Below the pieces are notes generated by a model. That model saw nothing but the letters and a program-made list of their open reading frames with translations, was not told the DNA's origin and searched no databases. Shown piece by piece: positions 39,794 to 41,083 of a stretch of 64,000 bases of DNA. Position numbers and translations under genes: made by a program. The DNA lies in assembly GCF_030539875.1 (NCBI RefSeq), contig NZ_JAUNXI010000005.1:1-64000 (forward strand), written 5' to 3'. The stretch's first letter is position 1. Every line of letters begins with the position of its first letter. Source of the stretch: Methanobrevibacter sp. (GTDB lineage Archaea > Methanobacteriota > Methanobacteria > Methanobacteriales > Methanobacteriaceae).

Positions 39794-40477
39794 TTATTCT
39801 TCTAAATACTTATTAATGATATCTTCACCTTTAAGTAAAACTAAACCATTTTCCTCTGCATATTTGCGGGCATCAGCAACAGATGTGGCCTGTCCAGTTT
39901 CGCCATCCATCATTTCACAAACTACACAAACAGGAGTAACACCTGCCATCTCACATAAAGCAAGACCTATTTCGGTATGTCCTCTTCTATTTTTAACAAG
40001 TCCTTCTGCTCCTCTTAAAAGACAGACATGACCTGGGGATCTGAATGTTGATCCGAATTCATCGAATCTTTCTTCTTTCATCATTAAAGCCAATTCACTA
40101 ATGGTCATTGCCCTATCATGGTCGGTAATGCCGGTGAATGATTTTCTATGATTTACCCAAATGGAAAATGAAGACCTTTCATCATAGGGAATATCATTTG
40201 GTGCAAGTTTAGCCAAATCAGGATATTTCTCACAGGCCGCTTGCATAATGTCTACCATGAAAGGCAACTTGATTTCATCACAAAAATCAGAATGGATACA
40301 ATTACAGATTAAACCGCCTGCATTATATCTCATTGTTGCAACAGATTCAGGAGTTACAAATTCAGAAGCGATAATCATGTCAACTTCCCCTTCCCTATCG
40401 TCATCATCAAAAACTAGTACGAATTCACCATTTCTAATAGCTTCTAAAGCTGCATCTAATTTATTTTCTTGATTCAT
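39794..40477 (-). CDS. ribB: 3,4-dihydroxy-2-butanone 4-phosphate synthase
   Basis: 227 aa enzyme that makes the four-carbon precursor of riboflavin from ribulose 5-phosphate. DDDDREGEVDMIIASEF holds the acidic metal site, RYNAGGLICN and TGITDHDRAMTI are the other signature stretches, and RRGHTEIGLALCEMAG ends the active site. No GTP cyclohydrolase II domain is fused. It has an aaggag SD and, upstream, an FMN riboswitch. ribK lies just upstream in the same direction. Confidence 0.96.
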   Translation of the reverse strand: MNQENKLDAALEAIRNGEFVLVFDDDDREGEVDMIIASEFVTPESVATMRYNAGGLICNCIHSDFCDEIKLPFMVDIMQAACEKYPDLAKLAPNDIPYDERSSFSIWVNHRKSFTGITDHDRAMTISELALMMKEERFDEFGSTFRSPGHVCLLRGAEGLVKNRRGHTEIGLALCEMAGVTPVCVVCEMMDGETGQATSVADARKYAEENGLVLLKGEDIINKYLEE

Positions 40478-40533
40478 AGTAATATCTCCTTATAATACTA
40501 GAACCAGGGCTAAAAATAACTAATTAAATTATT

Positions 40534-40664
40534 ACTTCTCTTCCATCCGGACTATCACCGTCGGTTTTGGACTTTCACCAAATCAACACATTTGTGCTCG
40601 TGGACTTATTTTAATAAAAAATCACCACCGGTGGAGAATTCCACTCCGCCCTGAGAACGTGATT
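40534..40664 (-). promoter_or_regulatory. FMN riboswitch (RFN element) of ribB
   Basis: Read on the minus strand the leader has the conserved RFN blocks in order: TTCTCAGGGCGG, CCACCGGTGG, CACGAGC, GGTGAAAGTCC, ACCGACGGTGATAGTCCGGA and TGGAAGAGAA. P1 is formed by TTCTC (40653-40657) with GAGAA (40536-40540). Downstream GCCCT (40506-40510) is complementary to AGGGC inside the element (40648-40652), a possible switch pairing. The ribB start lies 56 bases after the element, with SD aaggag. Bound FMN would be expected to reduce ribB expression. Confidence 0.93.
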
Positions 40665-40678
40665 AATAGATATATCGA

Positions 40679-40693
40679 TGATATATAAAAAAC
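40679..40693 (-). promoter_or_regulatory. TATA box of the ribB riboswitch transcript
   Basis: The minus strand reads tttttatatatcat here. Initiation about 25 bases downstream would fall near 40660, which is exactly where the riboswitch begins. The box is close to the end of ribK, so ribB can be expressed separately from ribK. Confidence 0.55.
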
Positions 40694-40708: not shown

Positions 40709-41083
40709 TTAAAATTCAAGAGACACAATATCCCCATCTTTTAGGGATAATTCATCTCGCAATTTATTTTTCGAAATAAATTCTAAATAATTTTCTTCAT
40801 GAGTGGTTTTAGCTGGAAATACAATTGCTCCGTGAATATCATCATTCAATTTGGCTTTAATGTACTTAACAGCACCAAATCCTTCATCAGGTTTAATCAA
40901 ATTCTGACAACTGTTTTTAATCCCATTAATTTCTTCCAAATATTCTTCACTAACAATTACATTTAAGGTTCCGGGATATGGAATAAAGCCCAAATTACTT
41001 TTAAATTCCTTAGTGTAAAATTCCTGTGATAAAAAATACGCTGCCTTTCCCAAACCGGTTGTAACTTCCCCATCAATTTTCAT
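40709..41083 (-). CDS. ribK: CTP-dependent riboflavin kinase
   Basis: 124 aa archaeal enzyme that makes FMN from riboflavin with CTP. GEVTTGLGKAAYFL near the start is the CTP-binding signature, FIPYPGTLNVIV the riboflavin-binding part, and IHGAIVFPAKTTHEENYLEFIS closes the cradle-loop barrel. There is no N-terminal DNA-binding domain, so it is not the RbkR regulator found in other archaea, consistent with riboswitch control of ribB here. Confidence 0.93.
   Translation of the reverse strand: MKIDGEVTTGLGKAAYFLSQEFYTKEFKSNLGFIPYPGTLNVIVSEEYLEEINGIKNSCQNLIKPDEGFGAVKYIKAKLNDDIHGAIVFPAKTTHEENYLEFISKNKLRDELSLKDGDIVSLEF

Follow-up and report, generated by a model that had tools for sequence, protein, structure and literature searches.

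The window, a 64,000-nt stretch of a Methanobrevibacter contig, carries two riboflavin genes side by side on its minus strand. The first, ribK (40709–41083), encodes a CTP-dependent riboflavin kinase of 124 residues, in which residues 7–123 match PF01982 (3.1e-35) and no further domain is found; as the original prediction had it, the DNA-binding domain of the regulator RbkR is lacking. The second, ribB (39794–40477, start codon at 40477), encodes a 3,4-dihydroxy-2-butanone-4-phosphate synthase of native archaeal type with 227 residues (PF00926, 1.3e-60). Between the end of ribK at 40709 and the start of ribB lie a TATA-box-like element, TTTTATATAT (40681–40690, minus strand), and about 26 nt downstream of it the 5' end of an FMN aptamer. 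Both the position and the sequence of the TATA-like element (TATTTTATA) are conserved upstream of the aptamer across the window's genus, which bears out the prediction that the aptamer has a promoter of its own. The box was further claimed to set the transcript start at the first base of the aptamer; promoter activity and the exact start are what we infer from the sequence.

The aptamer was identified by comparing the whole window with all Rfam families using cmscan. The sole match above the gathering threshold is RF00050, at 40662–40531 on the minus strand, with a score of 107.1 bits (cut-off 66.2, E-value 6.5e-24) over the complete model (1–138), and it is also the single RF00050 match in the 1.82 Mb genome. 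This significant match, obtained by the covariance-model search that had been proposed as a check, confirms the predicted bacterial-style FMN riboswitch aptamer before ribB, and all blocks of the RFN element can be read in order on the minus strand as claimed. The statement that helix P1 closes holds for five base pairs (UUCUC/GAGAA), while the three outer pairs are unformed in the window. The 3' end of the aptamer lies 53 bases from the ribB start, as expected of RF00050 members, which occupy leaders of riboflavin synthesis or transport genes. Among 32 Methanobacteriaceae sequences, changes on both sides were found in 8 of the 30 predicted pairs; this covariation supports the multi-helix junction of the class and points to selection on the aptamer's structure in the family. 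The window copy is predicted to bind FMN in the cell.

The expression platform extends the original prediction, which had missed its start-codon sequestor and its bacterial origin. A segment on the 5' side of the aptamer, UCAGGGC (40648–40654), is complementary to a downstream anti-aptamer segment, GCCCUGG (40504–40510), as in the E. coli platform, and the helix between them appears in predicted FMN-free folds. The core of this pairing, GCCCT (40506–40510) with AGGGC of the aptamer, had been proposed as an alternative fold; it is present in the window and kept in nearly every relative, and GCCCTGR is conserved in archaeal and bacterial ribB leaders alike. Three bases of the anti-aptamer segment (UGG) also belong to the 5' arm of a second helix, UGGUUCUAGUA (40496–40506), which pairs with 40470–40481. 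This 3' arm, UACUAUGAAUCA, consists of the last four leader bases, the start codon and codons 2–3 (Met-Asn-Gln). The two arms, UGRUUC-UNGUA and UACNA-u-GAAUCA, could form a hairpin of 11 bp and a single bulge, with the start codon held inside and the Shine-Dalgarno sequence AAGGAG (40486–40491; GGAG is conserved in relatives) in its loop. The Shine-Dalgarno sequence itself was rejected as the paired target, its predicted accessibility staying high in the window's genus. A nested competition between GGUUCU and GGAAUU of the aptamer was also dropped, as the pairing is not nested.

Downstream of the aptamer, archaeal copies have a T-tract, (A)GCCCTGR, TTC, and then the Shine-Dalgarno sequence and ATGAATCA, with UGRUUC-UAGUA complementary to UACUA-u-GAAUCA at the start codon and first codons of ribB. 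Bacterial ribB leaders, including the E. coli record, carry GCCCTGATTCTGGTA ... TACCATGAATCAG, so that the platform block is common to them and to all archaeal genera with the riboswitch. The arms have changed together: UGGUA/UACCA in bacteria is UAGUA/UACUA in archaea, a G-C to A-U replacement that preserves pairing, one locus (L137) has C-G in place of U-A, and genus g12 (genera of the set were numbered, g1 being that of the window) has rewired arms, UGGUUCAU/AUGAAUCA. Arms from the same genome pair at a mean of -9.93 kcal/mol, compared with -7.96 ± 0.19 once arms are swapped between genomes (0 of 2000 permutations reached as low a value), and both-side changes number 8 against 2.7 expected over 17 distinct arm pairs (1 of 500 shuffles was as high), both tests being inflated by shared ancestry. 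Three genomes (G041, G046 and G105) are without a good sequestor. At two loci (L052 of G111 and L083 of G123) the hairpin is rewired to UGRUUC-u-AUUGUA(U)/(A)UACAAU-GAAUCA, and its bulge lies on the opposite strand. At g9 loci (L035, L085 and others), GAUUCUA after GCCCTG has a nearby complement, UAGAAUC, and a local hairpin of the two would leave the start codon free.

The two helices have three bases in common, so FMN should allow sequestration of the start codon, that is, switch the gene off. Forcing the anti-aptamer helix in fold calculations lowers the sequestor probability in all genera (means 0.75 to 0.34 in g1, 0.55 to 0.06 in g6 and 0.28 to 0.00 in g9). In the window it falls from 0.85 to 0.56, and 8 bp of the start-codon hairpin survive in the computed anti-aptamer fold, so exclusion of one helix by the other is partial in the model. 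Since start-codon accessibility hardly shifts in the window (0.35 and 0.36 in the two forced folds), a switch by secondary structure alone would be weak; the scope of the model is secondary structure, and stacking, kinetics and competition with the ribosome lie outside it. In the proposed mechanism, GCCCUGG would pair with UCAGGGC when FMN is absent, depriving the start-codon hairpin of its three outer pairs, and translation of ribB would proceed. With FMN bound, the aptamer would be held, GCCCUGG would be free, and UGGUUCUAGUA would pair with UACUAuGAAUCA over the start codon, stopping translation. ribB is thus probably shut off when FMN is sufficient. This OFF logic is the likeliest because the E. 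coli switch shares this platform and is repressive in FMN: its RBS-sequestering stem forms, according to PMC12453403 (citing Pedrolli 2015), and FMN lengthens a pause near the start codon (PMC5234074).

Directly before AGCCCUGG lies a U-rich tract, UUAUUUUU (40512–40519, minus strand), a candidate site of archaeal termination or pausing. A run of at least five T within 14 nt before GCCCTG is found in 57 of 60 g1 genomes, 15 of 15 in g9, 4 of 4 in g6 and 8 of 12 in g12, and in G141; it occurs in 2 of 20 bacterial ribB leaders, and composition alone would give 4–9%. The archaeal tracts (T5–T8) adjoin GCCCUG and stay beside it although the distance from the aptamer ranges from 8 to about 150 nt. 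An intrinsic terminator of bacterial type was rejected, no G+C hairpin preceding the tract in the window. The tract may act as a pause, postponing the appearance of the anti-aptamer segment, or it may serve for termination as a substitute for Rho. The latter option leads to a different account of the switch, in which FMN binding to the aptamer would favor termination or factor-dependent cleavage at 40512–40519, replacing the Rho-dependent termination of E. coli, with the start-codon hairpin playing a minor part. Archaeal RNA polymerase terminates at U-tracts, which fits such a transcriptional switch, as does the near-universal placement of the tract in archaeal and not bacterial copies. The start-codon helix is however conserved and covarying, and GCCCUGG is conserved too, although it is synthesized only after the U-tract and so could not control termination there; the tract may instead serve as a pause during which FMN can bind. 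We therefore regard purely transcriptional control as unlikely, though a real contender, and favor control by sequestration of the start codon.

The distribution of the riboswitch was surveyed in 151 Methanobacteriales genomes. RF00050 scores above the cut-off in 93 of them (in G023, for example, at 193837–193975), or 94 with a truncated aptamer in G081. It is always present as one copy per genome, and all bearers belong to one family and 6 of the 19 genera. These counts rule out the riboswitch as a rare archaeal oddity, and the original remark that archaeal cases are few is untrue within this family; the phylum-wide search for further cases covered just one genome beyond Methanobacteriales and is uninformative on other archaea. 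All g1 genomes with an assembled ribB region have the aptamer or its remains; in G072 and G076 the contig ends inside the element. The G081 copy (L094, 1501–1553) has an internal deletion of about 80 nt with both ends intact, which is either real or an assembly error. In G100 (L111) a decayed aptamer precedes ribB: the P5–P6 region is deleted, CAGGGC and GCCCTG are lost and the MNQ start is kept. Its leader aligns with that of G048 at a score of 175, compared with 109 ± 8 for shuffled sequence, and represents a natural loss of the riboswitch. One further genome of the genus, G069 (95% complete, 10 contigs), has no RibB, RibK or FMN riboswitch and is a candidate riboflavin auxotroph. The idea that the element is a decaying passenger devoid of present function, to which the G100 and G081 copies might be taken to point, is most improbable given complete, above-cut-off aptamers with compensatory changes in 93 genomes and conservation of promoter and platform in more than 55 species of the window's genus.

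RbkR is an archaeal transcription regulator fused to the CTP-dependent riboflavin kinase, which ties riboflavin genes to flavin state, and the riboswitch had been proposed to replace it. RibK frames across Methanobacteriales are 72–185 residues long with or without the riboswitch and, judged by length, none in the order, riboswitch-less genera and families included, has room for a DNA-binding domain of RbkR type. The absence of RbkR does not track the presence of the riboswitch, as RibK is short also where the riboswitch is absent, and replacement was rejected.

A search with PF00926 separated RibB into two score classes: proteins behind the riboswitch in g6, g9, g12 and g16 score 265–284 bits, and those of g1 and of riboswitch-less genera about 184–222 bits. 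Three genomes (G112, G113 and G114) hold both kinds, the native copy lying near ribK without a riboswitch. In a quick tree of 117 RibB proteins the two kinds are split at support 100 by very long branches; the window protein falls in the native archaeal clade beside that of the riboswitch-less g3, and the g6, g9 and g12 proteins fall beside bacterial RibB (support 100 each). The aptamers tell another story. In a tree based on 150 columns, those of g1 and g2 form one clade with those of g6, g9 and g12 (support 100, branch 0.7), apart from 20 bacterial ribB aptamers, and G141 alone groups with bacteria; AT-rich composition may help to unite the archaeal aptamers. Since the aptamers form one archaeal clade and the RibB proteins do not, the switch has changed genes, carrying the codons ATG-AAT-CA with it; the archaeal aptamers share an origin within the family that the genes behind them do not.

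The first codons are consistent with such a transfer. An MNQ or MNH start is found in 58 of 61 g1 genes behind a riboswitch, in G141 and, for the bacterial-type genes of g6, g9 and g12, in 30 of 31 (the other has MEH). The 34 native ribB genes that lack a riboswitch all begin M[ILK]x instead; MNQ and MNH were seen only behind the riboswitch or its relic. The sequestor hairpin includes codons 1 to 3, and these codons therefore belong to the switch. In g3 (G006) ribK and ribB abut, a junction that represents the empty site, and since ribK directly precedes ribB in this riboswitch-less genus it is likely to be the ancestral neighbor of ribB. The same junction in g1 holds the promoter, aptamer, platform and about five extra codons, and the bacterial ribB of g6, g9 and g12 lies mostly away from ribK. 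In the rpoB tree g9, g6, g3 and g1 fall in one clade (support 92) and g12 far outside; within that clade g9 and g6 hold bacterial ribB and g1 native ribB.

The simplest history suggested by these trees would begin with uptake by Methanobacteriaceae of a bacterial cassette of aptamer, platform and ribB. In the g1 lineage the riboswitch, with the start codon and first few codons, would have moved between ribK and ribB, before the native ribB, and the bacterial ribB body would then have been lost. The whole cassette would have been lost in g3 and passed between methanogens to or from g12. Two loci stand apart. In G141 (g16; L002, 744–1641, next to a gene resembling RNase III on a contig of 257 kb) the riboswitch scores 134 bits and RibB is much nearer to anaerobic bacteria than to other methanogens, with Desulfobacteraceae, Syntrophobacteraceae, Clostridiales and Desulfosporosinus MAGs at 72–78% and gammaproteobacteria at 65–71%; this copy is either a second independent transfer or contamination. 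In G005 (g2; L024), rpoB lies outside the g1/g9 clade, yet the riboswitch-ribB contig (3.6 kb) is g1-like, and it is either mis-binned or recently transferred. G141, as a second and more bacterial-like copy in the family, might suggest that bacteria also gave g1 its riboswitch directly, in an event separate from the one behind the g6, g9 and g12 cassette. We consider this very unlikely, as the aptamer tree joins g1 to g9, g6 and g12 with support 100, the U-tract is common to g1 and these genera, the UAGUA/UACUA arms are common to g1 and g9, and the rpoB tree unites g1, g6, g3 and g9.

The aptamer, the conserved complementary segments, their covariation and the exchange of genes, as seen in sequence comparison, together make us fairly confident that the window holds an E. 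coli-type ribB FMN riboswitch that Methanobacteriaceae took up with a bacterial ribB, that later moved with the start codon and first codons before the native ribB, and that is off when FMN is bound. It is also rather likely that this bacterial riboswitch, having crossed domains with its gene, gained a U-tract suited to archaeal transcription before being transplanted onto a native gene that has the same function but comes from a distant lineage. The regulator would have outlived its own gene, and the archaeal enzyme would keep, in its first residues, the fossil of an RNA element from bacteria.

The riboswitch class is known, and its archaeal members match the public model; the tutorial of Infernal reportedly lists an FMN match in an M. 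ruminantium genome. What is new is the anatomy and the history. A literature search of partial coverage turned up no account of Methanobrevibacter FMN riboswitches, of the platform in archaea, of the exchange of genes or of the U-tract, and no experimental study of archaeal FMN riboswitches; priority is not claimed. The system offers a natural experiment, with the same switch before genes of two distant lineages and with empty-site, both-genes, decayed and grafted states in living species. It shows that one gene can pass a riboswitch cassette to another, the useful unit including the first codons, and suggests a way for archaea to use an RNA device that was built for the ribosomes and Rho of bacteria. 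Gut methanogens become candidate targets of roseoflavin-like ligands of FMN riboswitches.

Among known systems, RbkR resembles the window riboswitch in tying riboflavin genes to flavin state in archaea, but is a protein regulator and, by RibK length, was not found in Methanobacteriales. A 2007 survey noted that outside bacteria only TPP riboswitches were then known (PMC2258182), and in 2021 the fluoride riboswitch of Thermococcus kodakarensis was named as the sole natural archaeal riboswitch determined by experiment (PMC8241225); it differs from that of the window in ligand and fold. The riboswitches of g9, g6 and g12, which we infer to be the Methanobrevibacter ruminantium group and Methanosphaera-like genera, share with the window the aptamer clade, U-tract, platform and first codons, and differ in their bacterial ribB body and its usual location. 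Another counterpart is the ribB riboswitch of E. coli and its gammaproteobacterial relatives, which has the same aptamer, a GCCCUGA anti-aptamer segment, control of ribB, the MNQ start and a sequestor, UGAUUC-UGGUA/UACCA-u-GAAUCA, corresponding to that of the window. Unlike it, the window riboswitch precedes an archaeal RibB, has an added U-tract and an archaeal promoter, operates in a host that has no Rho, and joins the aptamer to GCCCUG by a linker of 20 nt, compared with 35–156 nt in bacteria.
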